DNA of 64,000 nucleotides from Paracoccus sp. MA. GTDB taxonomy: Bacteria; Pseudomonadota; Alphaproteobacteria; Rhodobacterales; Rhodobacteraceae. This document shows positions 5,797-22,805 of this stretch, in pieces. The notes below the pieces were generated by a model. The model did not search any database, was not told the DNA's origin, and worked only from the letters and a program-made list of their open reading frames with translations. A program made the translations under genes and the position numbers. The DNA lies in the NCBI RefSeq assembly GCF_020990385.1, contig NZ_CP087597.1, positions 271,001 through 335,000 on the forward strand, read 5' to 3'. Within the stretch, counting starts at the first letter, position 1, and the number at the start of each line of letters is the position of its first letter.

Positions 5797-6776
5797 TGGC
5801 CTGCGCCGGGCTTGGACATGCCGGCCGGCAGCGAACCGTCCTGTCCCTCGGGACCGCCGCCGGGCGCCCATTTCTCGCGCCATTGCAGCAGGAAGATCTG
5901 CGATGCCTCGGGGCCGTTCGGTGCCTGCCGCGCGACCCAGCTGTCGTCGTGCTTGTCCATGTCGGCGTCATATTCGAAATGGCAGCCGAGCGGGCTGTTG
6001 AAATACCAGAACCAGTTCGAGCCGAACCTGTGCCGGCCCGGCCCCCAGAAGGACTGGTAGCCCTTGCGGATGAAGCGGTCGCCTGCCACCATCAGCTCGG
6101 TCGGGCCTCCCATGTGGAAGGCCAGGTGCTCGCAGCCCTGCATGTAGGCGGGCGTGCGGATGAAGAAATGCGTGTGATGATCGTCATTCGAGCGCGGGCG
6201 CAGGAAGGGCCCGGCATTTTCCAGCACGTCGGTGATGACGAAGCCCAGGCGCTGGGTATAGAAGTCGACCATTTTCGGCAGGTCGGGGACGAACAGCACG
6301 ACGTGGCTGAGTGTGCGAGGCTGGGCCGGCATGTCGTCCCACACCCCAAGCTCGTTCGGGCCGCGCTGCGCCGGGGCGCCGGGAGCGTTGATCCTTTCCG
6401 CAGGCATGTTCAGCGTGCGGCGCTTGGTGACCTGGAACTTGACCTGGAAATCCAGGCAGTCCTGGAACTCGATCGAGCCATCGGCCAGCCGGGTGACGCG
6501 GCGGTCCCTGGACATTTCGGCCTCGATCTCGTCGAGCGCAGCGGCATCCTCGACGCCATAGACCTGCTGGCGCAGCATGTTGCGGGTCGGCAGCGGCGCG
6601 GGCAGGCGTGGGTCGTCGCGGTGGCGGATGATGACGCCGGTGCCGTCCAGCGCCTCGAACAGGCCGCCGGTTTCATCGAGATCGACCGGGGTCAGGCCGA
6701 AATCCTCAAGATAGCGCGCGGATCCGGCCAGATCCTCGACGCCAAAGACCAGATAGTCGGGTCCGATGATGCGCAT
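5793..6776 (-). CDS. VOC family extradiol-type ring-cleavage dioxygenase
   Basis: The 327-residue protein has two vicinal-oxygen-chelate domains, as in catechol 2,3-dioxygenases. The C-terminal domain keeps an Fe(II)-type triad: H158 in SHVVLF, H217 in CEHLAFH and E268 in CHFEYD. The N-terminal domain (residues 1-125) is the usual non-catalytic copy. ATG 6776 follows AGGAGGAGCAC, a strong ribosome site. It is the first gene of the minus-strand trio with the Rieske protein and FAD monooxygenase. The family cleaves catecholic rings next to the diol; the actual aromatic compound is not known. Confidence 0.75.
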   Translation of the reverse strand: MRIIGPDYLVFGVEDLAGSARYLEDFGLTPVDLDETGGLFEALDGTGVIIRHRDDPRLPAPLPTRNMLRQQVYGVEDAAALDEIEAEMSRDRRVTRLADGSIEFQDCLDFQVKFQVTKRRTLNMPAERINAPGAPAQRGPNELGVWDDMPAQPRTLSHVVLFVPDLPKMVDFYTQRLGFVITDVLENAGPFLRPRSNDDHHTHFFIRTPAYMQGCEHLAFHMGGPTELMVAGDRFIRKGYQSFWGPGRHRFGSNWFWYFNSPLGCHFEYDADMDKHDDSWVARQAPNGPEASQIFLLQWREKWAPGGGPEGQDGSLPAGMSKPGAGH

Positions 6777-6941: not shown

Positions 6942-9308
6942 TCAGAGGCGCAGAACCAGCGGCGGTCTGGCCATGGCTTCGCGCAGGGACAGGCCGGCAT
7001 GCAGCTGGACGCTGTCCGGCAGCAGCCAGCCGTCGCCCTGCCAGCGCCGCAGCGGACGCAGGTCGGGGGCGATCTCGATCTCGGCGCTGCCCTCGGCCGG
7101 GACGGTGGCGGTGGCATAGCCGATCAGGCTGGCGAAATCCTCGCCCGGCAGGCGGGCGTAAAGCTGTGCCACCGCCTTGCCGGCACGGCGCGCGGCATTG
7201 GTCAGCCGCAACGCCACCCGGTCGTCCCCGGTCAGCCGCGCCTCGGCCAGCGCCGGGCTGGCATAGCCCATGCCCTCGCCCAGCCCGAACCGCGGCGCCT
7301 TGCCGGCGGCCATCATGCCGCGATAGCCGATCAGCCGGCCCTCGGCATAGCCGAGCCGGCCCTGCGCATCGGGTTGCAGGGCAAAGGCCGGATAGTCACC
7401 GTCCTGCGCCGCGATGCTGAAGGCCAGCCGGCCGGCCGGTTCGCGCGCGCCCAGGATCACCTCCGCCAGGGCGGCGGCGAATTCCTGCCCGGGATACAGC
7501 GCCAGCATCAGCCCCGGCACCTGATCCGCGAAGGACAGATCAAGCGCATGGCCGACGTTGACGATGGCCACGGTCTGCGGATTGGCGGCGGTCACGCGGC
7601 GCAGCAGTTCGAGTTGCCGTGCGGGCAGGGCGGTGCTGTCGCGGTCCCTGGATTCGACGCTGGCATCCGAGGTTTCGCCCAGCATCAGCAGAACCAGATC
7701 AGAGTCGTGCGCGGCGGTCTCGGCCTCGGCCAGCATGGCCTCGGCACGTTCGGGGCCCTCGATGCCATACCACAGCCCCTGCACATAGGCCGGGGGATAG
7801 CGCAGCTCGATGGTGATGCGGCGCGGGGCGCGGTCGGGGAAGTCGATCTCGACCCGGTCGGCTTCGCCCGATTTCAGCCGGCCCATGATGTCGGCGGGGG
7901 CATAGGTGGTGTCGTTGCGATGCAGCTCGACCCCGTCGACCAGCACGCGGATGGCGCCGGTGCCGCCGGCGCAGATGACATGCGCGCCGGGGTGGTCGGG
8001 GGTAAAGATGCCCTCGGCGCGGATGCCGGCGGGTTTGTCCAGCACTGCGGCGATGCCGGTGCGGGCAAACCAGGTCAGCGAATTGGTGTCGCGGGTTTCC
8101 TGCGCCACCGGCGGGCGGTCGAAATCCTGCGTGTCGTAATAGCTGACCACCATGCCGCAGCCGCGGCTGTTGGGCAGGTCCTGGGCCGGGGTGACGCGCA
8201 TCGGCGGCAGGATCGCTTTCGGCAGGCAGCCCTGCGCGAAACTGACCGCGCAGCCGGCCAGCGCCTGCGTCACCGCCTGGCCGGGGGTAGGCAGGTCGGG
8301 GTCGATGGCGATCTTGGCGAATGTGCCGCCCTGATAGCAGGGCGCGAACCAGTTCGGCCCGACCAACGCCACCTTCGGATGCCGCGCGGGGTCCAGCGGC
8401 AGCAGCCCGCCGTCATTCTTCAACAGCACCATGCCGGCGGCGGCGGCTTCGACCAGCGTTGCACGGTCAAGGGGCGCGGTCTGGCCCTTGCCGGCAAAAC
8501 GGCGGGCGGTTCGCTCGACGCGGCTTGCGGCATCCTCCAGCCGCGCGGGCGCGACCTTGCCCCCGGCCACCATGGCGGTGACATGGCTGCCCATCTGGCG
8601 GCCGGGTCCCGGCATCTCCAGGTCCAGCCCGGCGCGGGTCGCGGCCAGACCATCCTGCACCCCGAACCAGTCCGAGACCAGAAGGCCGGCAAAACTCCAT
8701 TCCTGCTTGATGATCTGGTTCATCAGCAGGGCGTTTTCCGAGCAATAGCTGCCGTTGACCTTGTTATAGGCCATCAGGAAACCCGCCGGTTGCGCGGCCA
8801 GGGCCATCTCAAAGGGCAGCATGTAGACCTCGCGCAGCGCGGCCTCGTCCACTTGGACATCGACCTGATTGCGGTCGGTCTCGCTGTCGTTGCAGGTGAC
8901 GTGCTTGGGAATGGCGCCGACGCCCTGCGCCTGCAGGCCCTCGACCCAGGCGCGGCCAAGCGCGCCGGTCAGCCACGGATCCTCCGAGAAATATTCGAAG
9001 GCCCGCCCGCACAGCGGCGAGCGCGGCAGGTTCAGGTTCGGCGCCAGAAGCGCATCGACGCCCGAGCGCGCGGCCTCGGCCCCGACCACGGCGCCGATGC
9101 GGCGCACCAGGTCCGGGTCCCAGCTGGCGCCAAGCGCCACCGGCGCCGGGGTCAGCACCGCCACGTCGCGTTCATCGACGCGCCCCGAGGCGACGCCCAT
9201 CGGCCCGTCCGCCATGGTCAGCGCCGGCACGTCGCCGGGCGTGGCGGTGGACCACATGGCGCCGCCGGCGGTCAGCAGAGCCTTGTCATCGGTGCTCAGT
9301 CCGGACAT
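6942..9308 (-). CDS. Glycoside hydrolase family 3 beta-glucosidase
   Basis: The 788-residue protein has the three-part layout of GH3 beta-glucosidases. The N-terminal TIM-like domain carries KH at 135-136 and the nucleophile Asp (D213) in LLVSDWFG. A PA14-like insertion is likely in the middle, and a fibronectin III-like C-terminus starts near residue 680. There is no signal peptide, so it should act on imported glycosides in the cytoplasm. The ATG overlaps the FMN reductase stop (TGATG), putting a glycosidase in the same operon as a flavin monooxygenase pair. It probably removes O-linked glucose from plant phenolic glucosides (inferred). Confidence 0.85.
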   Translation of the reverse strand: MSGLSTDDKALLTAGGAMWSTATPGDVPALTMADGPMGVASGRVDERDVAVLTPAPVALGASWDPDLVRRIGAVVGAEAARSGVDALLAPNLNLPRSPLCGRAFEYFSEDPWLTGALGRAWVEGLQAQGVGAIPKHVTCNDSETDRNQVDVQVDEAALREVYMLPFEMALAAQPAGFLMAYNKVNGSYCSENALLMNQIIKQEWSFAGLLVSDWFGVQDGLAATRAGLDLEMPGPGRQMGSHVTAMVAGGKVAPARLEDAASRVERTARRFAGKGQTAPLDRATLVEAAAAGMVLLKNDGGLLPLDPARHPKVALVGPNWFAPCYQGGTFAKIAIDPDLPTPGQAVTQALAGCAVSFAQGCLPKAILPPMRVTPAQDLPNSRGCGMVVSYYDTQDFDRPPVAQETRDTNSLTWFARTGIAAVLDKPAGIRAEGIFTPDHPGAHVICAGGTGAIRVLVDGVELHRNDTTYAPADIMGRLKSGEADRVEIDFPDRAPRRITIELRYPPAYVQGLWYGIEGPERAEAMLAEAETAAHDSDLVLLMLGETSDASVESRDRDSTALPARQLELLRRVTAANPQTVAIVNVGHALDLSFADQVPGLMLALYPGQEFAAALAEVILGAREPAGRLAFSIAAQDGDYPAFALQPDAQGRLGYAEGRLIGYRGMMAAGKAPRFGLGEGMGYASPALAEARLTGDDRVALRLTNAARRAGKAVAQLYARLPGEDFASLIGYATATVPAEGSAEIEIAPDLRPLRRWQGDGWLLPDSVQLHAGLSLREAMARPPLVLRL

Positions 9309-9901
9309 CAGGCGGCCCCCTTCATATCGTGCCGCGCCTTGAAGGCGCGGGCAAAGCGCATGATCTGGTCGGCCTGCGCGGCGATGGTCGCGGTCAGCTG
9401 CGCATCCGATACGCTGCCGTTCTCGGCAAAGACCGGGCCGGCCAGCGTGTTCACCGTGACCCCGATCGGCGTGGGCCAGCCGCGCATCGCATGCACCATG
9501 TCGCGCAGCGCCGAAAGCGTGACCCCGGCGCCCTGCCAGCCCGCGGCCGAGACGATCAGCCCCACGGGGCGATCGTCGAAATAGACCCGCGCGTCGCCGT
9601 GCAGGTCTTCGAGCAGGTCGAGCGCGTTCTTGACCAGGCCCGAGATGCCGGCGTGATAGGCCGGCGTGCCGATGACGATGCCGTCGCAGTGCCGGACCGC
9701 CTCGACGAATTCGGTCTGGCGCGGGCTGCGCTCGGGCCGCTCGGGGGCGTAATGCGGCAGTTCGGCGAGGAAATCTCCGCCGAAAAGGCGGGTCTCGGCG
9801 CCCCCGGCCTCGCAGGCGGCCAAGGCCGCGCGCACCAGCCTTTCGCCCGACGAGCCGGGGCGGGTGGTGCCGCCGAAGCCGACGATCAGCGGCCGGATCA
9901 T
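9308..9901 (-). CDS. NAD(P)H-dependent FMN reductase
   Basis: The 197-residue protein is a flavodoxin-fold reductase: an N-terminal GFGGTTRPGSSGER phosphate-binding loop for FMN and the IGTPAYHAGISGLVKNALD segment typical of SsuE/azoreductase-like enzymes. It most likely supplies reduced FMN to the luciferase-like monooxygenase encoded just upstream. Both ends are translationally coupled: its ATG overlaps the monooxygenase stop (ATGA) and its stop overlaps the GH3 start (TGATG). Confidence 0.85.
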   Translation of the reverse strand: MIRPLIVGFGGTTRPGSSGERLVRAALAACEAGGAETRLFGGDFLAELPHYAPERPERSPRQTEFVEAVRHCDGIVIGTPAYHAGISGLVKNALDLLEDLHGDARVYFDDRPVGLIVSAAGWQGAGVTLSALRDMVHAMRGWPTPIGVTVNTLAGPVFAENGSVSDAQLTATIAAQADQIMRFARAFKARHDMKGAA

Positions 9902-11019
9902 GCCGGCACCGCCTGCTTGGCCGCGAAATGCGGGATGACGTGCCGGCCCATCAGGCGCACGGTCTGCTCGGCGAAGTCCAGCCGCTCTTGCGTCAGCGGG
10001 CCGGTGGTGGTGCCGCAGAGCACGTTGCCGATGCCCAGATCGGCATAGGGTTGCAGATGCTCGATCACCTGTTCCGGCGTGCCATAGAGACACCAGGTCG
10101 CGATCCATTCGTCGCTGAGCGCGTCGGAGATCTTGTCGGTCTTGGTGTTGGCCTCGTTGGATTCGGCCTTCTTGGCGAATTCGTTCTCGCGGTTCACGGC
10201 GTCCTGATAGGCGCGCAGGATTACTTCCAGTTCTTCGCGGGCCTGGTCGGCGGACTCGGCGACATGGACGCATTGATAGGTGTGGGTGGTCCAGCCAAGC
10301 GCGTGGTCGAGCGTGGCTTGGTCGTGGCCGGCGGCCAGCAACAGGTCGCGATATTTGGTGAAATGCGTGGTGACGTGCCTGAGCGGTTCCAGGTTGTTGA
10401 TCATCGGGGGCGTGAAGGCCGGGATAAAGGCGGGCCAGCCGTGTTCCGCCGCGCGCCGGGCCGAGGCATCCTTCAGCGCCACCGGCATCAGCGGAGCATG
10501 GCCTTTGCTGTAGGCGGCCGGTGCGATGCGCTGCAGCACGCGGCCCTTGTAGGGGCCGTTCTCGTATTCGACCGGCGGGTCCTCGGGCTGCTTGGCCCAG
10601 AGCCGTTCCGCGATCTCCAGGTTGCGATCCGAGATTTCCGACGCTTGCTTGTAGTTCACGCCGAAGCCGATCATCTCTTCGGGGGTGGTGCCGGAACCGA
10701 CGCCGATCAGCACGCGGCCGTCGTTGATCTGGTCCAGCAGGTTCACCCGTTCGGCAAAGCGCACCGGGCTGTGCAGCGGCACCGAGGTGACAGAAAAGCC
10801 CAGCGTGGTCTTTTTCTTGAACTGCGGCGCCAGCCAGGCCGCGAACATCATCGGGTCCGAGGCCCAGGGGGCATAGCCGGTGAAATGGTGGTCGGGGGTA
10901 AAGACGGCCTCGAATCCGGCGGCTTCGGCGGACAGGGCATGGGCGACGACCGATTGCATGACGAAGCGGTCCTGGTCCGGCGCCGTGGCGCGGGCGTTCA
11001 GGAAAAGCGAGAATTTCAT
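9898..11019 (-). CDS. Luciferase-like (LLM class) flavin-dependent monooxygenase
   Basis: The 373-residue protein is a bacterial luciferase-type TIM-barrel monooxygenase. It starts with MKFSLFLNARAT, has EAVFTPDHHF near residue 40, the VGSGTTPEEMIGFGV segment near residue 110, and the C-terminal GTPEQVIEHLQPYADLGIGN flavin/substrate region. These enzymes use reduced FMN from a separate reductase, and the next gene encodes one. It is first in the operon with FMN reductase and GH3 beta-glucosidase, behind a good sigma-70 promoter at 11078-11105. The substrate is unknown; oxidation of a glycoside or its aglycone is inferred from the neighbours. Confidence 0.85.
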   Translation of the reverse strand: MKFSLFLNARATAPDQDRFVMQSVVAHALSAEAAGFEAVFTPDHHFTGYAPWASDPMMFAAWLAPQFKKKTTLGFSVTSVPLHSPVRFAERVNLLDQINDGRVLIGVGSGTTPEEMIGFGVNYKQASEISDRNLEIAERLWAKQPEDPPVEYENGPYKGRVLQRIAPAAYSKGHAPLMPVALKDASARRAAEHGWPAFIPAFTPPMINNLEPLRHVTTHFTKYRDLLLAAGHDQATLDHALGWTTHTYQCVHVAESADQAREELEVILRAYQDAVNRENEFAKKAESNEANTKTDKISDALSDEWIATWCLYGTPEQVIEHLQPYADLGIGNVLCGTTTGPLTQERLDFAEQTVRLMGRHVIPHFAAKQAVPA

Positions 11020-11140: not shown

Positions 11141-12544
11141 TCAGGCCGTGGTGGCGGCCAGGTGCGCGCGCGCCGGGATCAGCCGGCTGAGTGCCGCAAC
11201 CGCCACCAGCAGGCCGATCTGCCACAGTGCCAGCGTGGCAAAGGCGCGGGCCGGATCGGCGCCGCCGTCCAACGCCGCCAGGAAGGCGGTGCCCAGCGTC
11301 GCCACGCCAAGCGCCATGCCCAGTTGCTGACAGGTGGTGAACAGGCCCGAGGCCGCGCCGGCCTGCGCGGGCGGCACGCGCACGAAGCAAAAGGCCGGCA
11401 ACGGGGCCGAGATCAGCCCCATGCCGCTGCCGCAGAGTGCAAAACCGACCCCAATGCGCCACAGATCCGCCGCGGCCATGCCCTCCGACAGCAAAAGCAG
11501 CCCGCAGATCTGGCTGGCGGCGCCGATCAGCATCATCCTGCGCCCCAGGATCGGCAGCAGCCTGCGCCCGAGCAGCGCGATCGAGAACGCCGCACCCGCC
11601 GCGAAGGGGATATGGATCAGCGCGGTCTGCAGCACGTCGAAGCCCAGCCCGCGCTGCAGCGCGACCGAGGCCGACAGCAGCAGCGCCCCGGTCCCGGTGG
11701 TGTACAGCATGACCATCGCCAGCCCGGTCAGCAGCAGCCCGTCCCCGAACAGCGCCGGCGGCACCAGCACCGTCCGGTTCGCGGCCGCCCTCTGCCGCAG
11801 GTGACGCCAGCACAGCACCAGCAGCAGCACCGCCAGCAGCGGCAGCAGCCGCAGAGGCGGCGGCCAGCCCAGGCGCGGCCCCTCGATCAGCGGGAACAGC
11901 AGCGCCGCCAGCCCGGGCAGGGCGAGCGCGAGCCCTTTGCCGTCCAGCCCGCGCGCCTCGGCCGAGCCGCCCTTGGGCAGCACGCGCCGGGCCAGCACCA
12001 GCGCCAGCGCGACCACCGGCACGTTGACAAGGAAGATCGGCCGCCAGCCCAGCCCGAACAGGTCGAGCCGCATCAGCAGCCCGCCGATGATCGGGCCCAG
12101 GATGCCCGCGGCGCCGCCGATCAGGCCAAAGATGCCCATGACCTTGAAACGCTCGTGCGGCGCATAAAGCACCTGGACGATGGACAGCACCTGCGGTCCC
12201 ATCATCGCTGCCGCCGCGCCTTGCAGGATGCGCATGGCAATCAGCATCTCGGCCGAGCCGGCCAGCCCGCAGCCGGCCGAGGCCAGTCCGAATCCGGTCA
12301 TTCCGGCCATGAACATGCGCCGGTATCCCAGAATGTCGCCCAGCCGCCCGCCCGCGATCAGCAGGGCGGCGAAAAAGAACGCATAACCCGAGGACACCCA
12401 GCCGATTTGCGGTCCGCTGGCGCCAAGCGATTGCTGCAACTGGGGAATGGCCACGTTGATGATGGAGCCATCCATGATCTCCAGCACCAGGGCCGCACCG
12501 ACGACGGCGACGGCCATGCTGCGCTGGCGTTCGTTCAGGATCAT
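11141..12544 (-). CDS. MFS transporter, DHA2 (EmrB/QacA-like) family
   Basis: The 467-residue integral membrane protein has about 14 hydrophobic segments. Its MFS motifs include GGRLGDILGYRR (motif A, loop 2-3) near residue 70 and the motif-C-like GGAAGILGPIIGG near residue 145. ATG 12544 (MILNERQRS) was preferred to the longer open frame starting at 12595 because the extra N-terminus is not hydrophobic and has no ribosome site. DHA2 proteins are usually proton-driven exporters of drugs or aromatic compounds. Its place between glycoside-oxidation operons suggests transport of a phenolic glycoside or aglycone (inferred). Confidence 0.85.
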   Translation of the reverse strand: MILNERQRSMAVAVVGAALVLEIMDGSIINVAIPQLQQSLGASGPQIGWVSSGYAFFFAALLIAGGRLGDILGYRRMFMAGMTGFGLASAGCGLAGSAEMLIAMRILQGAAAAMMGPQVLSIVQVLYAPHERFKVMGIFGLIGGAAGILGPIIGGLLMRLDLFGLGWRPIFLVNVPVVALALVLARRVLPKGGSAEARGLDGKGLALALPGLAALLFPLIEGPRLGWPPPLRLLPLLAVLLLVLCWRHLRQRAAANRTVLVPPALFGDGLLLTGLAMVMLYTTGTGALLLSASVALQRGLGFDVLQTALIHIPFAAGAAFSIALLGRRLLPILGRRMMLIGAASQICGLLLLSEGMAAADLWRIGVGFALCGSGMGLISAPLPAFCFVRVPPAQAGAASGLFTTCQQLGMALGVATLGTAFLAALDGGADPARAFATLALWQIGLLVAVAALSRLIPARAHLAATTA

Positions 12545-12574
12545 TTCTTTCACCGGAGGTTGTGGCGCGGATGC

Positions 12575-12616
12575 TTGACAGCCGGTCCGCCGCATTACTA
12601 TTAGAAATAGTATTCT
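12575..12616 (+). promoter_or_regulatory. Promoter and operator-like dyads before the C-glycoside genes
   Basis: TTGACA (12575-12580) is followed by TACTAT (12596-12601, 15-base spacer). The -10 region lies inside a perfect dyad, TACTAT-N5-ATAGTA (12596-12612), and overlaps AGAA-N6-TTCT (12603-12616), the dyad also found at 11067. Confidence 0.45.
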
Positions 12617-12664: not shown

Positions 12665-13663
12665 ATGGAGCACCAGATCAAGCGGGGCGTCAGCCTTTAC
12701 AGTTTTCAGAACGACACCTTCCTCGGGCGCATGAGCCTGGAGGATTGCATCCGCGAATGCGCCGCGATGGGCGCGATGGGCATCGAGGTGGTGGGCGAGC
12801 AGACCTTCGCCGGTTGGCCCGAACGCGGCATGCCCGAGGCAGGCATTGCCGAATGGCACCGGCTGATGGCGGCTTACGGCACGGTGCCGGTCTGTCACGA
12901 TTTCATGCTGGATTATAAACGTTACAAGGGCAGGATGATGCCCTTCGACGAACAGGTGGCCAGCGTCCGCAAGGATATCGAACTCGCCCGCCGGCTGGGT
13001 GCGCCCTATATCCGCTCGCTGGTCTCGGTCGAACCCGAGGTTCTGGTCGCGGCCGCACCCTATGCGGAAGAGGCGGGCGTGACGATCCTGCTGGAGGTCC
13101 ACGCGCCCCTGCATTTCGACCACCCCTGGATCATCCGCCACGCCGAGGCCTATGAAAAGTCCGGCAGCACGGCGCTTGGCTTCCTGCCCGACATGGGCAT
13201 GTTCCTGCACCGCTTCCCGCGCGTCTGGAAGGAACGCTTCATTCGCAACGGCTGCCCGCGCGATGCCGCGGATTTCATCGAAAAAGCCTATGAGGACCGG
13301 CGGCTGGCGGAATATGTCGTGCTGGACGTGATGCAGCGATGGGGCTCGGGCCCGCAGATGGCCATGGTCGAGACCCTGCGCCACAACGCCGCCTATGAAC
13401 CGCGCCGGATGCTGGAGTTCATGCCGCGCATCCACAATATCCACGCCAAGTTCTACGAGATGACCGAGGACGGCCAGGAATGGTCGATCCCCTATGACGA
13501 GGTCGTCGCGGTGCTGAAGCAGGGGGGCTATCGGGGCTATCTCTGCTCGGAATACGAGGGCAACCGCTGGATCGAGGACGTGCAGGAGGTGGACAGCCTC
13601 GGCCTGGTCCGGCGGCAGCAGCAAATGTTCGCGCGCCTGCTTGGCGAAACCGTTCCGGCCTGA
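12665..13663 (+). CDS. Probable C-glycoside deglycosidase alpha subunit (TIM barrel)
   Basis: The 332-residue protein is a xylose-isomerase-like TIM barrel with a complete metal site: E144 and H146 in LLEVHAPLHF, D176 in FLPDMGMF, H260 in IHNIHAKFY and E296/E298 in SEYEGN. The start follows GGGGAGGGG. The next gene, 11 bases away, encodes a DUF6379 protein, the known beta subunit of C-glycoside deglycosidases (CarC, DfgB, DgpC type), whose alpha partner is a metal-dependent TIM barrel of this kind. Such complexes split the C-C bond of 3-keto C-glycosides. The barrel family is seen in the sequence; the deglycosidase role is inferred from the pairing. Confidence 0.75.
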   Translation: MEHQIKRGVSLYSFQNDTFLGRMSLEDCIRECAAMGAMGIEVVGEQTFAGWPERGMPEAGIAEWHRLMAAYGTVPVCHDFMLDYKRYKGRMMPFDEQVASVRKDIELARRLGAPYIRSLVSVEPEVLVAAAPYAEEAGVTILLEVHAPLHFDHPWIIRHAEAYEKSGSTALGFLPDMGMFLHRFPRVWKERFIRNGCPRDAADFIEKAYEDRRLAEYVVLDVMQRWGSGPQMAMVETLRHNAAYEPRRMLEFMPRIHNIHAKFYEMTEDGQEWSIPYDEVVAVLKQGGYRGYLCSEYEGNRWIEDVQEVDSLGLVRRQQQMFARLLGETVPA

Positions 13664-13674
13664 GGAGAGACATC

Positions 13675-14067
13675 ATGTTCGATCAGCACATCATCTGTCC
13701 CGAGGGCTTTCGCAACGTGACCGAGAGCGGGCAGGTCGCCGGCTTCCGTTTCCTGGCGCGGCTGCCCTATTACCGCGGCCTGGGCCTGTCGATGATCGAG
13801 GACCTGGCCGTGACCGTGGACGGCGAAGCCGTGCCGCGCGAGGCCGTGCGCCTGTCCCTGCGTGGCCGCAGCTGGACGCTGGACCAGCTGGAAACCGTCC
13901 ATGACGACCGCTGGGATTTCGGCGAGAAGGCCGAGATCGTGGTGACCCGTCCGGGCGGCCTGGCGCCTGGCAAGCACAAGCTGAAGCTGGCCGAGCGGCT
14001 GCGGATTTCCTACCTGCCCTTCGTGCCCACCACCGCGCATGAGACCGAGCTGACACTGGAGGGCTGA
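13675..14067 (+). CDS. DUF6379 protein, probable C-glycoside deglycosidase beta subunit
   Basis: The 130-residue beta-rich protein matches the DUF6379 family (C-glycoside deglycosidase beta subunit domain). It opens with MFDQHIICPEGFRN and contains FRFLARLPYYRGLGLSMIED, and ends in a strand rich in P-T-T-A-H-E-T. In characterised enzymes this subunit wraps the TIM-barrel alpha subunit and helps shape the active site. It follows the alpha gene after GAGGAGAGACATC, so the two should be made together. A perfect hairpin terminator follows. Family membership is fairly secure; the natural glycoside is unknown. Confidence 0.8.
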   Translation: MFDQHIICPEGFRNVTESGQVAGFRFLARLPYYRGLGLSMIEDLAVTVDGEAVPREAVRLSLRGRSWTLDQLETVHDDRWDFGEKAEIVVTRPGGLAPGKHKLKLAERLRISYLPFVPTTAHETELTLEG

Positions 14068-14083
14068 GCCTTCCGCCAACGAG

Positions 14084-14112
14084 AAAGGCCCCGGCGATCT
14101 GCCGGGGCCTTT
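14084..14112. terminator. Bidirectional terminator between convergent genes
   Basis: AAAGGCCCCGGC and GCCGGGGCCTTT make a perfect 12-bp stem with a 5-base loop. A and T runs on either side let it serve both the DUF6379 gene and the convergent GMC gene. Confidence 0.85.
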
Positions 14113-14114
14113 GC

Positions 14115-15615
14115 TTACAGGTGCCGCTCGATGACCCGATCCGCCGCCAGGAGCGCCAAGGCCACGGCGGTCAACGTCGGGTTGCAGGCGGTGGCGGTCG
14201 GGATGGCGCCGTTTCCGCCCAGATAGAGGTTGTCATAGCCCCAGACCCGCCCCTCGGCATCGCAGACCGAGCTGCCGTCATCCGCCGGGCCAATGCGATG
14301 CGTGCCCTGATAATGCAGCGAGCTGCCGGCGGGCAGCAGCATCGGCGCGCCACCCGGCACGAGGCGGCCCAATGCGGCGCCGATGCGCTCTGCCCAGTCC
14401 ATCGCCAGTTCGACCCGCGCCCGGTCCCGCTCGGTCAGGCGATAGTCCAGCCGGAAGCGCGGCATTCCCAAGGCGTCTGTCGCCTCGTCAAAGACGATGC
14501 GGTCGTCCTCCTGCACGTCCTTGGCCAGGAACAATCCCAACCCGACCACAGGCCGCGTCGTGCCATCGGGCAGGGGCGGCAGCGCGATGGGTGAGGTGTC
14601 CATCTGCATCAGTTGCGCGTGGAACGGGAACTCGGGGTCGTGGAACGGCAGCCAGCTGACGCCGGAAACCCCGTCGCGGCCGTCCATCAGGGCCCTCTCC
14701 TCGGCGCGGGTTCCGGTTTCCAGGTCCAGCTCGATCAGGGCGATGACCTGCGGCTGGTCGTTCAGCCAGCGCCCCAGCGCGGCGGGCCGGATGCCCGAGG
14801 CATGCAGCAATTGCGGCGTGCGCAGCGCGTCGCCCGCGACCATCACCGCGCCGGCGCTGATCCTCTCGATCCGGCCGCTGGCCAGATCCACCAGCTCGGC
14901 GCCGGTGACACGGTTGCCCTCGGTGAGAAGGCGGCGGCAGAGCGTGCCGCTGCGCAGCCCGACCCCGGCGCTGGCGCGGCCCTCGGGCGTGGCGAGGGGA
15001 CCAAGCACCATGTCCACACCGGCCCATTTCGGCCGGTCGCCGTCGGGACGACAGGCCAGCGGCATCGGCTGCGGCTGGCGCTCGGGGCTGCGGCCGGCGC
15101 CGAAGGCTTCGCGCAACCGGCTGACGACGTGGCGGGTGGCGCGGGTCTCGGGGAAACCCTTTTGCGTTACCGAAAGGTATTCCTCGGCCCGCGTCAGTGC
15201 CGCGTCCATCCGCTCCGGGTCGAGGAAGCCGATGCATTCGCTGTCGCCGGGGCGCGGGCAGGCGCAGGTCCAATGCGCCCCCATGCCGCCGAGGTTCGAC
15301 GACATCGCGGCGGCAGGCATGCCCGGGTCGCCGGGCAGGGGCGTCCGGCCGAGCCAGGAAAGTGCCCGGCCGGGCCTTCAACGCGCCCTCGGGCATGTCG
15401 CCCACACGGGCGAGGGGAAAGGCCCGGGCTTGGGCATAGGCGGCCTCGCGTTCCTCGGGCGGCAGGTTGCGCATGTTGGCGCCGCCCGAGAGCTGCAGAT
15501 CGGCGCCGGCCTCGACCATCAGCATGTTCCGGCCGGCGCCCCGGGCGGCGAGATGGCGGGCAAACGCCGATCCTACCGGCCCGCTGCCCACGATCAGCAC
15601 TTCGAAATGTGACAC
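14115..15615 (-). pseudogene. Frameshifted GMC oxidoreductase, pyranose oxidase/C-glycoside 3-oxidase-like
   Basis: Two reading frames together make one GMC protein of about 499 residues. The first (GTG at 15615 after GGGAGG) encodes the FAD motif VLIVGSGPVGSAFA and runs to RPGTFLAR. The rest continues in another frame from LGRTPLPGDPGMPAAAMS. Removing one G near 15354 would join them as GTFLLGRTPLPGD. The second part has GGMGAHW (the family His that can bind FAD covalently), SSLHYQGTHRIG (catalytic His) and ACNPTLTAVALA (Asn), like pyranose oxidase and C-glycoside 3-oxidases such as CarA. It faces the C-glycoside deglycosidase genes. It is either a true pseudogene or a sequencing error. Confidence 0.75.
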
Positions 15616-15966
15616 TTGACCTCCCTTTCGATTCGTGACGGCCGCACCCTAGAAGCGGGTCGCAGCCAAGGAAAATTGATCCGGTGCAACAATGTATTCA
15701 TGAGCTTGCCAGCTCAACCAAAATTAGTATTCATATTCTGAATACACTCATGTGCCGTTATGATTTCCGATTCGGTTCCGCGCGTTGTAATTCCGCCGGA
15801 AGGGAGGAGGAGCGACCGATTGACGCAGCCGCGCGCGGCCATGCCGAGCATCGGGGCCGATCCTCAGACAGATTCAAGCGGGCGCCTGCTATGCCGGCAC
15901 GCGCCGCCTGCAGAGACCCGGCCGGCGGCGGTAAGCCGCCCCGCGCTTTTCGAGGAGGAACACGTT
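15616..15966. other. Divergent intergenic region between GMC and MFS genes
   Basis: No gene is visible in these 351 bases. They contain GTATTCAT twice (15694, 15727), 33 bases apart, a TGAGCT-N4-AGCTCA hairpin (15701-15716) and the dyad at 15727-15745, so the stretch is probably regulatory. Confidence 0.5.
15727..15745. promoter_or_regulatory. GTATTC-N7-GAATAC operator-like dyad
   Basis: A perfect 6-bp inverted repeat lies in the AT-rich part of the divergent region between the oxidase gene and the MFS transporter. It is a plausible site for the TetR regulator at 17275, but no direct evidence links them. Confidence 0.45.
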
Positions 15967-17211
15967 TTGTCAACCGAACACCCGTCGACCGGGGTTAAAC
16001 GCAAGGCCGGCATCCCGCAGGGGCTGGTCATGGCGCTGACCTCGTTTCTGCCGATCCTGGCGATCATCTCGTTGGTGCCGGCGGTGCCGAGCCTGATCCA
16101 GCATTTCGACAATGTGCCCCATGCGCGGACATTGATCCCGCTGATGATCACCGCGCCGGGCCTTATGATCGCGCTGACCGCGTCCTTTGCCGGCTGGTTC
16201 GCCGACCGGCTGGGCCGCCGGCCGCTGCTCTTGGGCGCGACGCTGCTTTACGGCATCTGCGGCACGGTGCCGCTTTACGTGGACAGCCTGCTGCCGATCT
16301 TCATCAGCCGGCTGGGTGTCGGCCTGTCCGAGGCGGTGGTGCTGACCATGGCCAACACCATGCTGCTGGATTATTTCGACATGCGCGGTCGCCGCATCTG
16401 GCTGACCGTTCAGGGCGTGATTGGCCCGGCACTTGGCACCATGGTCTATGCATTGTCAGGCTATCTGACCGGCATCGTCTGGAACGGCGCGTTCTGGATC
16501 TATGCCTCGGCCTTCGTGCTGTTCATCGCCATGTATATCTGGATGTATGAACCGACCGGGCAGGAGCGCCATGCCGACGAGCCAGAGATCGATGACACCG
16601 TCTTCCCCTGGGGCCGGATGATCGGTGTCATGGTCCTGACCTTTGTCATCGCCGCGCTGTATTACATCTACACGATCAACGGCGGCTCGGCCTTCCATTC
16701 GCTGGACGGCGCATCGCCCGAGCGCATCGGCGTGATGATGTCGCTCGCCAGCCTTGCGGTGCCTGTCGGTGCGCTGGTCTTCGGCTATATCTCGCGGCTG
16801 ATTTCTTCCGAGCAGGTTCTGGGCATCGTGCTGCTGCTGGTCGGCCTGGGCATGATCGGCGTCGGCCTCTCGACCAACGTGGTGCAGATGGGCGTCTCGG
16901 CCTTCGTGCAGCAGATCGGCGCCGGCATGGCGATCAGCGCGATGATCTTCTGGGTCTCGACGCTGTTCGGGCCGCAGCATCGCGGCCGGGTCATGGGCTG
17001 CTGGTGCAGCGCCTTCTTTGCCGGCATGTTCGTCAGCCCGCTGTTCTTCAGCGCCGTGCGCGAAATAGGTGGCGGGGACGTGCTGCTGCCCTTCCGCACC
17101 TTCGGCCCGGTGTCGCTGGCGATCGCAGTGGCGCTGATCCTGGCCGGCATCGGCAAGACCCGCCGCATGAAGGCCGCGCGTCAGGCCGCCGCCCCGGCTG
17201 CAGCGCACTGA
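15967..17211 (+). CDS. MFS transporter
   Basis: The 414-residue protein has 12 predicted membrane segments. Motif A, FAGWFADRLGRRPLLLG, lies between segments 2 and 3 near residue 78. A second, weaker copy (FGPQHRGRVMGCW) is in the C-terminal half. TTG 15967 was chosen because GAGGAGGAA precedes it at a normal distance and it places a short hydrophilic N-terminus before the first membrane helix. The longer open frame to 15760 covers the regulatory region. It probably imports the sugar or glycoside used by the neighbouring oxidase and deglycosidase genes (inferred from position). Confidence 0.8.
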   Translation: MSTEHPSTGVKRKAGIPQGLVMALTSFLPILAIISLVPAVPSLIQHFDNVPHARTLIPLMITAPGLMIALTASFAGWFADRLGRRPLLLGATLLYGICGTVPLYVDSLLPIFISRLGVGLSEAVVLTMANTMLLDYFDMRGRRIWLTVQGVIGPALGTMVYALSGYLTGIVWNGAFWIYASAFVLFIAMYIWMYEPTGQERHADEPEIDDTVFPWGRMIGVMVLTFVIAALYYIYTINGGSAFHSLDGASPERIGVMMSLASLAVPVGALVFGYISRLISSEQVLGIVLLLVGLGMIGVGLSTNVVQMGVSAFVQQIGAGMAISAMIFWVSTLFGPQHRGRVMGCWCSAFFAGMFVSPLFFSAVREIGGGDVLLPFRTFGPVSLAIAVALILAGIGKTRRMKAARQAAAPAAAH

Positions 17212-17274: not shown

Positions 17275-17949
17275 TCAGCCCAGAAGATAGCTGATGACCA
17301 TGTCGTTGGTCTGGCGTTTCAGCGCCGCCCATTCGATATCCGGCATCTCGCCCTTGTCCGATCCGAAGCCGAGGTGGTTGCGATAGATCGAGAAGGCGGC
17401 GAACAGGGCAAAGCGAAGCGCCTCGTCGCGGGGCTCGCGCCGCACTTCGCCTTCGCATTGCATCAGCACCGCCATCGCCTGGGTGATGAACGACTGATAG
17501 GCTTCGGTGCCGACACGGCTGATTTCCGCGTCCTGCGTGGCGCGCAGCATCATCTGGCGCAGGATCGGTGCAAATTGCCGCAACAGATCGGCGAAGCCAT
17601 CGAAAAGCTGGGGCACCAGCTGGCGCAGCGGTACGCCGGTCCAGCGCGAGGGGTCCAGCAGCGAACGATGCGCCAGCCCCAACTCCTCCATTACCACCGC
17701 CTGCACGGCGTGCATCAGCTCGTCCTTGCCGGTGAACCGGCCATAGATCGAACCGATAGAGACCCCCGACTGGCGTGAGACCTTTTGCAGCGTCAGCCCT
17801 TCATAGCCCTCTTCCTCCAGCAAACGCCGGGCGGCGGCCAGCACCTTGGCCTGCGAGCGCCGGCTGCGGGCCTGTTGCGGCGGGCGCCTGGTCACGGCAT
17901 CGCTGACTGCTTGCGATATGGCTGCGATGTCGGAGGGAGTTGTTGGCAT
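17275..17949 (-). CDS. TetR/AcrR family transcriptional regulator
   Basis: The 224-residue protein has the TetR helix-turn-helix near residues 28-75: a QAKVLAAARRLLEEEGYEGLTLQKV helix pair, here cited by position, then the recognition segment SGVSIGSIYGRFTGKDEL. The rest is an all-helical ligand-binding domain of normal length. About 25 basic residues precede the domain. It is convergent with the MFS gene and probably controls part of the glycoside cluster, releasing DNA when an aromatic or glycoside ligand binds (inferred). Confidence 0.85.
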   Translation of the reverse strand: MPTTPSDIAAISQAVSDAVTRRPPQQARSRRSQAKVLAAARRLLEEEGYEGLTLQKVSRQSGVSIGSIYGRFTGKDELMHAVQAVVMEELGLAHRSLLDPSRWTGVPLRQLVPQLFDGFADLLRQFAPILRQMMLRATQDAEISRVGTEAYQSFITQAMAVLMQCEGEVRREPRDEALRFALFAAFSIYRNHLGFGSDKGEMPDIEWAALKRQTNDMVISYLLG

Positions 17950-18442: not shown

Positions 18443-19591
18443 ATGATCATATCCGATGTTGAGGTTCGGGTGTTCCTGACCACCACGCGCCGCCATTCCG
18501 ATAGCGCGGGTCACGCTCATCCTGGCCCGGCTCATCAGATCGAGCAGGCGATGCTGACCATCCGCACTGAAGACGGCCACGAAGGCCATTCCTTTACCGC
18601 GCCGGAAATCGTTCGCCCGCATGTGATCGAGAAGTTCGTCCGAAAGGTTCTTGTCGGACAGGATGCCCGCGACCGGGAGCGGTTGTGGCAGGATCTGGCG
18701 CACTGGCAGCGCGGCTCGGCGGCGCAGCTGACCGACCGGACGCTGGCCGTAGTCGATTGCGCGCTGTGGGATCTGGCGGGGCGGGCCCTGAACCAGCCGG
18801 TCTACAAGCTGATCGGCGGGTATCGCGACAAGGTGCTGGCCTATGGCAGCATCATGTGCGGCGACGAGATGGAGGGGGGGCTTGCCACACCCGAGGATTA
18901 CGGCCGTTTCGCCGAAACCCTGGTCAAGCGCGGTTACAAGGGCATCAAGCTGCACACCTGGATGCCCCCGGTCAGCTGGGCACCCGACGTGAAGATGGAC
19001 CTCAAGGCCTGCGCCGCGGTGCGCGAGGCGGTCGGGCCGGACATCCGCCTGATGATCGACGCCTTCCATTGGTATCCGCGCAGCGACGCGCTGGCGCTGG
19101 GCCGCGGTTTGGAAAAGCTGGGCTTCGACTGGATCGAGGAACCTATGGACGAGCAGTCCATGTCGTCATACAAGTGGCTGGCCGACAATCTGGACATTCC
19201 GGTGATCGGCCCGGAAAGCGCAGCGGGCAAGCATTGGCACCGCGCGGAATGGATCAAGGCCGGTGCCTGCGACATCCTGCGCACCGGCGTGAACGACGTG
19301 GGCGGCATCACCCCGGCGCTCAAGACCATGCACCTGGCCGAGGCCTTTGGCATGGAATGCGAGGTGCACGGCAATACCGCGATGAACCTGCATGTCGTCG
19401 CCGCCACCAAGAACTGCCGCTGGTACGAGCGCGGGCTGCTGCATCCCTTCCTGGAATATGACGACGGTTTCGATTATCTCCGGCAGCTCTCGGACCCGAT
19501 GGACGGCGAGGGCTATGTGCATGTCCCCGACCGCCCCGGCTTGGGCGAGGACATCGACTTCGACTTCATCGAAAACAATCGCGTGCGCTAG
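18443..19591 (+). CDS. Mandelate racemase/muconate lactonizing enzyme family (acid-sugar dehydratase-like)
   Basis: The 382-residue protein belongs to the enolase superfamily. The Mg2+ ligands are D206 (MIDAFHW), E232 (WIEEPM) and E258 (GPESAAG). The catalytic groups are K169-x-H171 (GIKLHTW) on one face and H309 (CEVHGN) with D285 (GVNDVGG) on the other, the pattern of the mandelate racemase subgroup. Many members dehydrate acid sugars such as galactarate, gluconate or fuconate. It starts an operon with an SGNH esterase and an oligopeptide-type binding protein, beside uronate genes. It is not the galactarolactone cycloisomerase, which is at 34679. Confidence 0.8.
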   Translation: MIISDVEVRVFLTTTRRHSDSAGHAHPGPAHQIEQAMLTIRTEDGHEGHSFTAPEIVRPHVIEKFVRKVLVGQDARDRERLWQDLAHWQRGSAAQLTDRTLAVVDCALWDLAGRALNQPVYKLIGGYRDKVLAYGSIMCGDEMEGGLATPEDYGRFAETLVKRGYKGIKLHTWMPPVSWAPDVKMDLKACAAVREAVGPDIRLMIDAFHWYPRSDALALGRGLEKLGFDWIEEPMDEQSMSSYKWLADNLDIPVIGPESAAGKHWHRAEWIKAGACDILRTGVNDVGGITPALKTMHLAEAFGMECEVHGNTAMNLHVVAATKNCRWYERGLLHPFLEYDDGFDYLRQLSDPMDGEGYVHVPDRPGLGEDIDFDFIENNRVR

Positions 19592-19606
19592 GCGAGAGGG
19601 CTGAAG

Positions 19607-20236
19607 ATGAAGGAGATCCTGGCCTTCGGTGACAGCCTGACATGGGGCGCGGACCCGGCGACGGGGCTGCGCCACCCGGCGGAGGCCCAATGGCCGCGCG
19701 TGCTGGAGGCAGGGCTGGGCGGCCGGGCCCGCGTCATCGGCGACGGCATCGGCGGGCGCACCACCTGCCGGGAGGATCATGGCGGGCCGGCCTGTCGCAA
19801 CGGCGCCAGATCGCTGCCGCAGGCGCTGGCGGCTGCCATGCCGCTGGACCTGGTTATCCTGATGCTGGGCACCAACGACCTGAAGGCGGTGCATGGCGGC
19901 CGGGCGGTCGGTGCCCAGGCCGGCATGCGACGCCTGGTCGAAATCATCGAGACTTTCCCCTACAAGCCCCGCAACGCGTGCCCGAAGGTGCTGATCGTCG
20001 CGCCACCGCATTGCGGCATGGCGGGCGAGCTGCCGCCGGCCGGCGGGCGCGAGATCGCGGAATCGCGGCGCCTGGGCCCGCTTTATGCCGCGCTGGCGCA
20101 GCAGCTCGATTGTGGCTTCTTCGATGCGGCGCAGGTTGTCGGACCGTCCCCGGTCGATGGCGTTCACCTGGAGGCGGATCAGTCGGCGGCGCTGGGCCGG
20201 GCGCTGGTCGCCCCGGTGCGGGCGCTGATCGAATAG
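19607..20236 (+). CDS. SGNH/GDSL family esterase
   Basis: The 209-residue protein has all four SGNH blocks: GDSLTWG (Ser nucleophile, residue 9), GDGIGGRTT (Gly), LGTNDLK (Asn) and SPVDGVHLE near the C-terminus (Asp/His). No signal peptide is seen, so it is likely cytoplasmic. It resembles small arylesterase or carbohydrate acetylesterase-type enzymes. In this context it could remove acetyl or other acyl groups from imported pectic oligosaccharides or plant glycosides (inferred). It lies 15 bases after the enolase-superfamily gene and before a solute-binding protein. Confidence 0.85.
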   Translation: MKEILAFGDSLTWGADPATGLRHPAEAQWPRVLEAGLGGRARVIGDGIGGRTTCREDHGGPACRNGARSLPQALAAAMPLDLVILMLGTNDLKAVHGGRAVGAQAGMRRLVEIIETFPYKPRNACPKVLIVAPPHCGMAGELPPAGGREIAESRRLGPLYAALAQQLDCGFFDAAQVVGPSPVDGVHLEADQSAALGRALVAPVRALIE

Positions 20237-20309
20237 CGAATGGAAGGAATTGCGGAGATTTCCGCAGTCGGCACGCCGCGAGCCTGGATCGCGGTCCATG
20301 GGAGGAAGC

Positions 20310-21908
20310 ATGAGACATCTTTTCGCATCGGTGGCGCTGGCCGCCCTGTTCTGCGGTGCCACGCCCGTGGCGACCCTGGCCGAGACGCCCGACGACCAGC
20401 TGATCGTCGCCACCGTCATGAGCAATATCCTGACGCTCGACCCCGCCGCCATCACCGGACGCGAGACGGTGCAGGTGCTCAACAACATCTATGACACGCT
20501 GGTCGTGCTGTCGCCCGATGGCAGGGACCTGCATCCGCGCCTGGCCGAAAGCTGGGAGGTCTCGCCCGACCGGATGAAGATCACCTTCAGGCTGCGGCCG
20601 GACGCGGTCTTCGCCTCGGGCAACCCGGTCACGGCGCAGGACGTGGTCTTCAGTCTGAAGCGCCTGCTGACGTTGAATCTGGCGCAATCGTCCTTCCTGA
20701 AATCGCGCGGCTATACGGCCGAGGCCGCAGACAGGCTGTTCGTGGCCCAGGACGACCATACCTTCGTTCTGAACCTGCCCGAGCCGGACGATCCGAAGCT
20801 GATCCTGATGGTCCTGGCGCAGAACGGGCCCGGCTCGATCCTGGACAGCAAGACGGTGCTGGAGAACGAGCAGGGCGGCGATCTGGGCGCGAAATGGCTG
20901 ACGCTGAACTCGGCCGGCTCCGGGCCGTTCACGCTGACCAGATGGGCCTCGAACGAATATATCATCCTGTCGCGCAACGATGACTACTGGGGCGAGGTGC
21001 CGGCGATGAAGCGCGTGCTGATGCGCCACCTGCCGGAATCGCAATCCCAGCGCCTGATGCTGGAACAGGGCGATATCGACGTCGGCTATTCGCTGCTGGC
21101 CCCCGACCTGAAGGCGCTGGAGAGCAACGACAGGATCAAGATCGAATCCACACCCGGCGCCGGGTTCTACTATCTGGCGGTCTCGATGAAGGATCCGCGT
21201 TTCGCCGACCGCAAGGTGCGTGAGGCGCTGCGCCTGCTGATCGACTATGACGGGTTGGACAAGGCGGTGATGCCCTATTATGGCAAGCTGCACCAGCGGC
21301 CGATCACCACCGGTGCGTTGGGCCAATTGCCGGATCCCGGCTACAAGCTGGACGTGGAAAAGGCCAAGGCCCTGCTGGCCGAGGCAGGTTATCCCGACGG
21401 TTTCAAGACCACATTGCGGGTGCTGTCCGAGGAACCGTTCCTGAAGGCGGGCACCGCGATTCAGAACACCCTGGCGCAGGCCGGCATCCAGGCCGAGCTG
21501 ATCACCGGTTCCGGCGACCAGATCTATGGCGCCATGCGCGACCGCAACTTCGAACTGCTGGTTGGTCGGGGCGGCGGCGGCCAGCAGCCGCATCCCGATA
21601 GCAACCTGCGGGCGCTCGCCTTCAATCCCGACAATTCCGATGAGGCCAAGCTGACCAATTACCAGGGCTGGCGCACCAGCTTCTTTGACGAAAAGCTCAA
21701 CGGCATGATCGAGGATGCGCTTCTGGAGCGCGACCTGGAGACGCAGAAGAAGAAATACGAGGATATCCAAGCCTATATGGATCAGACTGTCATGTCGATC
21801 CTGCCCTTCTCGGAGACGGTGGATACGGCGGCTTTTCAGGCGGATGTGCATGGGCTGATCGTCAATCCCTGGCTGACCCGCTTCGAGGTGGTGACCAAGG
21901 AGCGCTGA
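20310..21908 (+). CDS. ABC transporter substrate-binding protein, family 5 (peptide/nickel/oligosaccharide type)
   Basis: The 532-residue protein begins with a signal peptide (MRHLFASVALAALFCG, cut after about TLA-E) and GGAGG lies before this ATG. Family 5 features include the LDPAAITGRETVQVLNNIYDTL start and the SWEVSPDRMKITFRLRPD segment. It also has PVTAQDVVFSLKRLL and, later, RKVREALRLLIDYD. It should bind ligand in the periplasm and feed the Opp-type permease encoded convergently at 22056-25543, which has no binding protein of its own. Opp-type systems in such islands can carry oligosaccharides, so a uronide ligand is likely but inferred. Confidence 0.85.
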   Translation: MRHLFASVALAALFCGATPVATLAETPDDQLIVATVMSNILTLDPAAITGRETVQVLNNIYDTLVVLSPDGRDLHPRLAESWEVSPDRMKITFRLRPDAVFASGNPVTAQDVVFSLKRLLTLNLAQSSFLKSRGYTAEAADRLFVAQDDHTFVLNLPEPDDPKLILMVLAQNGPGSILDSKTVLENEQGGDLGAKWLTLNSAGSGPFTLTRWASNEYIILSRNDDYWGEVPAMKRVLMRHLPESQSQRLMLEQGDIDVGYSLLAPDLKALESNDRIKIESTPGAGFYYLAVSMKDPRFADRKVREALRLLIDYDGLDKAVMPYYGKLHQRPITTGALGQLPDPGYKLDVEKAKALLAEAGYPDGFKTTLRVLSEEPFLKAGTAIQNTLAQAGIQAELITGSGDQIYGAMRDRNFELLVGRGGGGQQPHPDSNLRALAFNPDNSDEAKLTNYQGWRTSFFDEKLNGMIEDALLERDLETQKKKYEDIQAYMDQTVMSILPFSETVDTAAFQADVHGLIVNPWLTRFEVVTKER

Positions 21909-21934
21909 TCTCTCGATCCTCCTGGCCGGATCGC

Positions 21935-21966
21935 GGGCGCAACCCTTTCGACGGTTGCGCCCTTTT
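21935..21966 (+). terminator. Terminator after the solute-binding protein gene
   Basis: GGGCGCAACC and GGTTGCGCCC form a perfect 10-bp stem with an 8-base loop, followed by TTTTCC. Confidence 0.85.
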
Positions 21967-22003
21967 CCGTTTGCCCGGCCTGCCGCGGGGCGCCCCGCAA
22001 AGC

Positions 22004-22038
22004 AAAAGGACCGCACCACGATGTGCGGCCCCTTTTTC
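22004..22038 (-). terminator. Terminator of the minus-strand uronate/Opp run
   Basis: CCGCAC and GTGCGG form a stem around CACGAT, with runs of A on the left and T on the right, so it can work in both directions. It lies just after the last ATPase stop at 22056. Confidence 0.7.
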
Positions 22039-22055
22039 CATGGCGGCGAGGGGGG

Positions 22056-22801
<746 letters not shown>

Positions 22802-22805
<4 letters not shown>

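Follow-up and report, generated by a model that had tools for sequence, protein, structure and literature searches.

A two-gene module encoding a predicted C-glycoside deglycosidase (CGD) lies at 12665–14067 of a 64,000-nucleotide stretch of the Paracoccus sp. MA genome (GCF_020990385.1, contig NZ_CP087597.1, positions 271,001–335,000 of the forward strand; hereafter the window). Coordinates are window positions, and genes of the same genome that lie upstream are placed relative to the window start. C–C glycosidic bonds withstand ordinary glycosidases, and the preliminary description of this DNA had proposed that a metal-site TIM barrel protein and a DUF6379 protein form a tight pair of the CGD type, faced by a pyranose-oxidase-like GMC gene. 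The features at this locus are as follows.

12665–13663, plus strand: CGD alpha subunit 1, a metal-site TIM barrel of 332 residues (368 bits to 8qvc_A; seven active-site residues; model TM 0.94).
13675–14067, plus strand: CGD beta subunit 1, a DUF6379 (PF19906, CGDB) protein of 130 residues (141.7 bits, cut-off 27.6; 81.8 bits to 8umc_B/8qvc_B).
14084–14112, no strand: GC-rich hairpin in the gap separating CGD beta from the convergent GMC gene, a possible shared terminator (fold 14079–14120).
14115–15615, minus strand: C-glycoside-oxidase-like GMC gene, frame-broken near 15340–15377 (C-terminal part: 8qve 414 bits, 7qf8 322 bits).

The alpha gene opens with an ATG at 12665 and its stop codon ends at 13663, and only 11 bases separate it from the beta gene. 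The DUF6379 family is Pfam PF19906, since renamed CGDB (‘C-glycoside deglycosidase beta subunit’), and the beta protein matches this model far above its cut-off. Its solved relatives rank in the order 8umc/8qvc chain B, 8qrz, 9m3b, DfgB, 9m3a, DgpB and AgCarC2 (45.5 bits). Among solved sequences, the alpha subunit scores highest against 8qvc_A; each of the next seven matches (103–136 bits) is also from a CGD, as an alpha chain or a fusion, and ordinary TIM barrels reach 20 bits at most, below all CGD sequences. The titles in the fold search identify 8umc and 8qvc as the C-glucosyl deglycosidase of Deinococcus aerius TR0125. An AlphaFold2 model of the alpha subunit (20 aligned sequences, mean pLDDT 92.2) matched these two structures in Foldseek with a template modelling (TM) score of 0.94, a root-mean-square deviation of 1.4 and approximately 52–53% identity.

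The AgCGD2 alpha subunit is described as binding its metal through E147, D179, H269, K271 and E305 and as using H149 with E307 as its catalytic pair, all seven residues having been probed by mutagenesis (PMC8563793). Its matched stretch was aligned with CGD alpha 1, with a second alpha copy in the same genome (CGD alpha 2, below) and with 80 relatives, kept from 117 related places found by scanning genome contigs; all 80 are Proteobacteria by title. The equivalents of the metal ligands (E144, D176, H260, K262 and E296) and of the catalytic pair (H146 and E298) are all present in CGD alpha 1, and the seven residues are also kept in CGD alpha 2 and in every one of the relatives. A beta gene lies no more than 250 bp downstream of alpha on the same strand in 79 of the 80 relatives; in the remaining one the contig runs out about 110 bp past the alpha match. 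The scores and this synteny exclude a chance pairing of the TIM barrel with the DUF6379 protein. Family model, residues, fold and gene order thus agree in supporting a CGD with predicted activity and substrate, as the preliminary description had proposed for the pair; CGD1 is a further member of an already known enzyme class. Two pocket residues of AgCGD2 were compared for signs of C6 or C8 preference, with the alignment uncertain at both. M249, for which C6-type enzymes reportedly have Ala or Gly, corresponds to L238 in CGD alpha 1 and I247 in CGD alpha 2, and N248 to T237 and G246.

The C-terminal 401 residues of the facing GMC gene (14118–15320, minus strand) score 414 bits against 8qve, 323 bits against 7dve and 322 bits against PsG3Ox (7qf8). 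Weaker matches are 9fl2, a ‘pyranose oxidase’ (164 bits), and pyranose 2-oxidases, which we take to be fungal, at 107 bits or less. The catalytic His–Asn pair of PsG3Ox, H440 and N484, aligns to His and Asn in this piece; alanine mutants at these positions are reported to be inactive (PMC10646112). The gene fits the earlier proposal in its convergent orientation on the minus strand and in its C-terminal part, but it cannot be read through in a single frame. The N-terminal part, which runs from 15615 down and carries the FAD-binding start, and the C-terminal part, which extends to 14115, occupy different frames, and an intact homologue from Paracoccus aestuariivivens (64% identity) matches 15615–15200 in two frames, with the two matches overlapping at about 15340–15377. 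No intact oxidase is readable here and the gene is not counted as a working C-glycoside oxidase. On this frame change, the idea that 12665–15615 holds an intact, full set with a CarA-like oxidase was rejected. Another homologue, intact and 499 residues long, shares 99% identity with the C-terminal piece and 96% with the N-terminal one. Given this near-identical intact oxidase, the break would be either a recent event in the strain or a fault of the assembly. The 14079–14120 fold has a calculated energy of −27.7 kcal/mol, obtained without a shuffled control, and the hairpin is absent from the output of the consensus terminator scan (2 hits versus 2.1 in shuffles). The promoter scan found none.

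The CGD1 module is part of an island that begins about 5 kb ahead of the window and reaches about 18 kb into it, and the interval singled out in the preliminary description omits most of this system, namely the second CGD, the hydratase, the Gfo/Idh/MocA oxidoreductase and the aglycone genes. Fractions of 80 in the following list count the loci of the 80 relatives with a homologue of at least 80 bits near the CGD within the fetched DNA, which covers about 8 kb on each side in 68 of them.

1–144, plus strand: 3′ end of CGD alpha subunit 2, which starts 857 bases before the window (7dnm AgCGD2 alpha 184 bits; seven residues conserved).
154–1782, plus strand: second GMC oxidoreductase, choline-dehydrogenase-like, a possible CGD2 oxidant (PF00732 146 bits, PF05199 114 bits; 11/80).
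1822–2907, plus strand: 2-hydroxy-3-keto-glucal hydratase-like TIM barrel (8ro4 535 bits; 40/80).
2904–4040, plus strand: Gfo/Idh/MocA oxidoreductase, candidate 3-keto-glucose reductase (PF22725 128 bits, PF02894 77 bits, PF01408 71 bits; 42/80).
4283–5413, minus strand: FAD aromatic monooxygenase (PF01494 88 bits).
5410–5883, minus strand: Rieske [2Fe-2S] protein (PF00355 37.7 bits, cut-off 20.3).
5793–6776, minus strand: VOC ring-cleaving dioxygenase, FdeC-like (PF00903 47 bits; 74% identity to an FdeC-named protein).
6942–9308, minus strand: GH3 glycosidase (PF00933 122 bits, PF01915 130 bits; 41/80).
9329–9904, minus strand: NADPH-dependent FMN reductase (PF03358 88 bits; 22/80).
9898–11019, minus strand: LLM-class flavin monooxygenase (PF00296 135 bits; 37/80).
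11141–12595, minus strand: major facilitator superfamily (MFS) transporter, divergent from CGD1, a label taken from sequence reading only (22/80).
15760–17211, plus strand: MFS transporter, start uncertain (PF07690 110 bits; 44/80).
17275–17949, minus strand: TetR-family regulator (PF00440 53 bits; 52/80).

CGD alpha 2 is preceded, before the window, by a second beta gene (PF19906 56.6 bits, cut-off 27.6), and its best solved relative is AgCGD2. The GMC protein at 154–1782 scores 426 bits against the choline dehydrogenase model, under the cut-off of 605, and the Gfo/Idh/MocA protein scores 133 bits against the levoglucosan dehydrogenase model, under the cut-off of 650. The match of the hydratase to AtHYD (8ro4) extends across residues 7–355 of 361 and its activity is predicted. 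The VOC protein owes its FdeC label to a protein with the source name ‘naringenin degradation protein FdeC’, the one such name among the best 120 of 2760 matches. Genes for an alpha/beta hydrolase, a FAH-family protein and a cyclase lie just before the window; the best solved relatives of the hydrolase are 8qd7, a ‘Yellowish-green 1-like protein’ (76 bits), and 2,6-dihydroxy-pseudo-oxynicotine hydrolase (71 bits). We know of no role for the LLM monooxygenase and FMN reductase in C-glycoside use.

A second hydratase and Gfo pair (66 and 59% identity, respectively) occurs on contig 3 of the same genome (3149–5289), and a GMC oxidoreductase gene in 13920–16052 of that contig, about 9 kb from the pair, is a possible alternative C3 oxidant. 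The small protein encoded ahead of it has a twin-arginine-like start and no Pfam match. After the CGD1 module in the window, 18443–25561 holds genes for an MR_MLE sugar-acid-dehydratase-like protein, a GDSL esterase and a family-5 solute-binding protein. A search at E 1e-8 found no homologues of these three in the CGD loci of the 80 relatives, so they are probably outside the module. ATP-binding cassette (ABC) transporter genes come next in this segment, and sugar ABC transporter-like and LacI-like genes adjoin the contig 3 pair; both sets are named by sequence reading alone.

It is likely that 12665–14067 encodes the alpha-beta CGD of an oxidise–eliminate–hydrate–reduce route that is coupled to use of the aglycone. 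On the best reading, the island would serve the catabolism of C-glucosylated flavonoid-like compounds with both the sugar and the aglycone being consumed, and we infer the reactions, their substrate class and their order as follows. A flavin-dependent GMC enzyme would oxidise an aryl C-glucoside at C3 of its glucosyl group. Because the adjacent GMC gene of the right type is broken in the assembly, this step in the strain would fall to another enzyme (GMC 154–1782, a Gfo/Idh/MocA enzyme or a GMC protein elsewhere in the genome), or the break would be a sequencing error. The CGD, with its metal held by E144, D176, H260, K262 and E296 and with H146 acting as the base helped by E298, would then eliminate the aglycone from the 3-keto sugar to leave 2-hydroxy-3-keto-glucal. 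The hydratase at 1822–2907 would convert this intermediate to 3-keto-glucose, which the Gfo/Idh/MocA enzyme would reduce to glucose. The freed flavonoid-like ring would be hydroxylated by the FAD monooxygenase and opened by the FdeC-like dioxygenase, and the alpha/beta hydrolase, FAH-family protein and cyclase may act on the ring-opened product.

The oxidising partner differs among the relatives. A pyranose-oxidase-like GMC gene is found near the CGD in one of the 80 loci, that of P. aestuariivivens, and such a neighbour is thus an exception among these proteobacterial relatives. GMC genes of the gluconate-2-dehydrogenase type occur in 45 loci, with an identity to the reference of 50% or higher in 41 of them and under 40% in four, and the gene for the Gluconate_2-dh3 small subunit (PF13618) in 43; both are present in 41. 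This GMC dehydrogenase with its Gluconate_2-dh3 protein is the commonest candidate oxidising partner, and C-glycoside oxidation is its predicted function. No description of a partner of this type for CGDs was found among the papers listed by literature searches, as judged by titles and the openings of abstracts. None of the three GMC types is present in 28 of the 80 loci; for this count a GMC 154–1782 homologue had to reach 50% identity, as it does in 10 loci. The CGD alpha 2 query matches all 80 loci, a count that was set aside since this query also recognises alpha 1.

A survey of 101 genomes (this one, others of the genus and others of the class) found CGD alpha 1 (E ≤1e-10) or the oxidase in only two, the Paracoccus sp. 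MA genome and one of the same genus, and the trait is therefore patchy. Relatives of the alpha gene occur on 23 of 72,556 plasmid records, and a DNA-level plasmid search for the module returned five Novosphingobium records with the alpha gene alone. The argument from the rarity of such enzymes, made when the locus was first described, is weakened by the 117 related places in a single scan, and published work already describes PurABC homologues from Pseudomonadota and Deinococcota (PMC12724307).

Several observations weigh against the proposed route. The adjacent oxidase is broken and lacks a single complete reading frame. The hydratase and Gfo genes adjoin CGD2, not CGD1, and a hydratase homologue (E ≤1e-60) is present in 51 of the 101 genomes versus two for CGD alpha 1, on which ground the hydratase was rejected as a CGD marker. 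Homologues of the aglycone genes are seldom near the CGD (VOC 5/80, alpha/beta hydrolase 7/80, FAH 7/80, cyclase 8/80 and FAD monooxygenase 19/80), which speaks against a single unit. The VOC and FAH proteins are weakly related to their counterparts on the Deinococcus aetherius plasmid described below (25 and 34% identity, respectively, both partial matches), the VOC value being a further point on this side. On an Alloyangia pacifica plasmid, genes for VOC, Rieske, MFS, alpha/beta hydrolase and cyclase proteins cluster in a stretch that has no annotated CGD, which suggests that aglycone genes can move separately from the CGD.

The enzyme could be a true CGD-type eliminase whose natural substrate is not a flavonoid C-glucoside but the C-glucoside of a xanthone or an anthraquinone, or else a 3-keto O-glycoside. 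CGDs are reported to accept varied aglycones (PMC8563793), the GH3 family, active on O-glycosides, has a homologue near the CGD in 41 loci, hydratase homologues are common without a CGD, and the scarcity of VOC and FAD monooxygenase genes near the CGD points the same way. In this genome, however, an FdeC-labelled dioxygenase, a FAD monooxygenase and an alpha/beta hydrolase are close by and the closest solved relative of CGD1 alpha bears the name C-glucosyl deglycosidase, so that we regard a different substrate class as rather unlikely. Slightly less credence still is given to decay, in which the module has lost its oxidase, leaving the pair without a substrate and heading for loss, as the frame change and the occurrence in only two of 101 genomes, this one included, would allow. 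Against decay, the alpha and beta genes are intact with all key residues kept in alpha, the near-identical intact oxidase makes the break recent or an assembly error, and the GMC genes at 154–1782 and on contig 3 are other candidate oxidants. An ordinary sugar isomerase or epimerase, with the DUF6379 gene an incidental neighbour, is a highly improbable identity for the TIM barrel. NCBIfam has no model that matches CGD1 alpha or beta and Pfam assigns alpha only to the general AP_endonuc_2 family, which would leave room for an isomerase; the isomerase reading was rejected on the CGD residues, on the beta gene that follows alpha in 79 of 80 loci and on the fold ranking. In the Foldseek comparison (best 50 of 1811 matches), chains of CGDs or their named complexes fill ranks 1–16, and epimerases and isomerases rank under all CGDs with query TM scores of 0.64 or less versus 0.72–0.94. 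Neither of the sequence-level outcomes that the preliminary description named as refuting, a failed DUF6379 profile match and a TIM barrel grouping with unrelated sugar isomerases, was seen.

A wider reading builds on the proposed route and is put forward tentatively, as somewhat short of an even chance. It treats the island as one complete catabolon in which two unlike CGDs, CGD1 being Deinococcus-like and CGD2 nearest the C8-selective AgCGD2, would between them handle C6- and C8-glucosyl flavonoids, a separate GMC oxidant serving each CGD, with glucose salvage and an FdeC-type opening of the A-ring; the gene set would be largely common to Deinococcota, and a third kind of GMC partner would serve in many relatives. 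Among the findings themselves, it was less expected that a single island should hold CGDs of two kinds with hydratase and Gfo genes alongside and an FdeC-like ring-opening gene, and that relatives should have another partner.

Elsewhere in the window, genes for a PfkB kinase, a KduI-family isomerase, an SDR protein, a DHDPS-family protein, an MR_MLE protein and an amidohydrolase lie at 31086–36669. Together with the GH28 and GH88 genes at 42002–44715 they form a pectin or uronate utilisation cluster, and the GH28, GH88 and KduI-family genes agree with the earlier characterisation of the organism as pectin-using. The segment at about 47154–63995 is prophage-like, with a DUF6538 protein that has a weak phage integrase match, DUF2303, RecT and MT-A70 proteins and a small terminase subunit.

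Gut bacteria, Actinobacteria and Deinococcus are the sources of the CGD enzymes described in the literature and Protein Data Bank titles examined. A clear example from the Alphaproteobacteria, with sugar and aglycone genes adjacent, opens a whole pathway to test in place of a single step. The relatives suggest that what varies in such systems is the oxidising partner, which bears on genome screens that rely on CarA- or PurA-like genes.

The fde genes of Herbaspirillum (naringenin) and the ifc genes of Variovorax (isoflavone) resemble the island, as likened by description, in having a FAD monooxygenase, a putatively FdeC-type VOC protein and an alpha/beta hydrolase. Isoflavone degradation is described as using an FdeE-like monooxygenase, an FdeC-like glyoxalase and an alpha/beta hydrolase, in an account that mentions no CGD in these clusters (PMC11069340). 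The glycoside operon of Agrobacterium tumefaciens (GlycDH, AtOGE, AtHYD and Gfo) shares with the island both the hydratase (535 bits to AtHYD) and its Gfo partner. Its route is reported to oxidise, eliminate, hydrate and reduce, with AtHYD preliminarily assigned to 2-hydroxy-3-keto-glucal hydration, and AtOGE cleaves O-glycosides and is described as having no sequence kinship to CGDs (PMC10628242). DgpBC and DfgAB of gut bacteria (7bvr and 7bvs) have the same alpha fold and beta family as the Paracoccus pair at 25–26% alpha identity; the oxidant for DgpBC, DgpA, is described as NAD-dependent and unrelated to the FAD oxidases of soil bacteria (PMC12724307). CarA/CarBC of Microbacterium and PurA/PurBC of Paenarthrobacter, both actinobacterial and likened here by description, follow a similar two-step plan in which a GMC-type flavin oxidase is succeeded by an alpha-beta CGD (PMC12724307, PMC8563793).

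In a gammaproteobacterial metagenome-assembled genome, a CGD occurs together with genes for an alpha/beta hydrolase, a VOC protein, a Rieske protein and a FAD monooxygenase. The closest solved relatives of the Paracoccus alpha subunit, beta subunit and oxidase are those of D. aerius (8qvc and 8umc; 8qve), with identities of 53, 42 and 53% over the matched stretches of 8qvc A, 8qvc B and 8qve, respectively. We take 8qve to be probably the oxidase of the D. aerius cluster, which is reportedly the subject of Furlanetto 2024. The D. aetherius plasmid encodes proteins 98, 93 and 89% identical to these three stretches, and its gene set resembles the island: one 18 kb stretch holds LLM, FMN reductase, GH3, CGD alpha and beta, GMC, VOC, cyclase, FAH and alpha/beta hydrolase genes and two FAD oxidoreductase genes. 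The LLM protein and FMN reductase have the highest identities to this set (61 and 63%) and recur near the CGD in 37 and 22 of the 80 loci. The other identities are 45% for GH3, 53% for CGD alpha, 39% for beta, 53% for GMC (C-terminal piece), 43% for the cyclase, 57% for the alpha/beta hydrolase and 35% for the FAD oxidoreductase. Compared with the Deinococcus cluster, the gene order in Paracoccus sp. MA is rearranged, the oxidase gene is convergent and broken, and a second CGD, the hydratase and the Gfo/Idh/MocA oxidoreductase are added.

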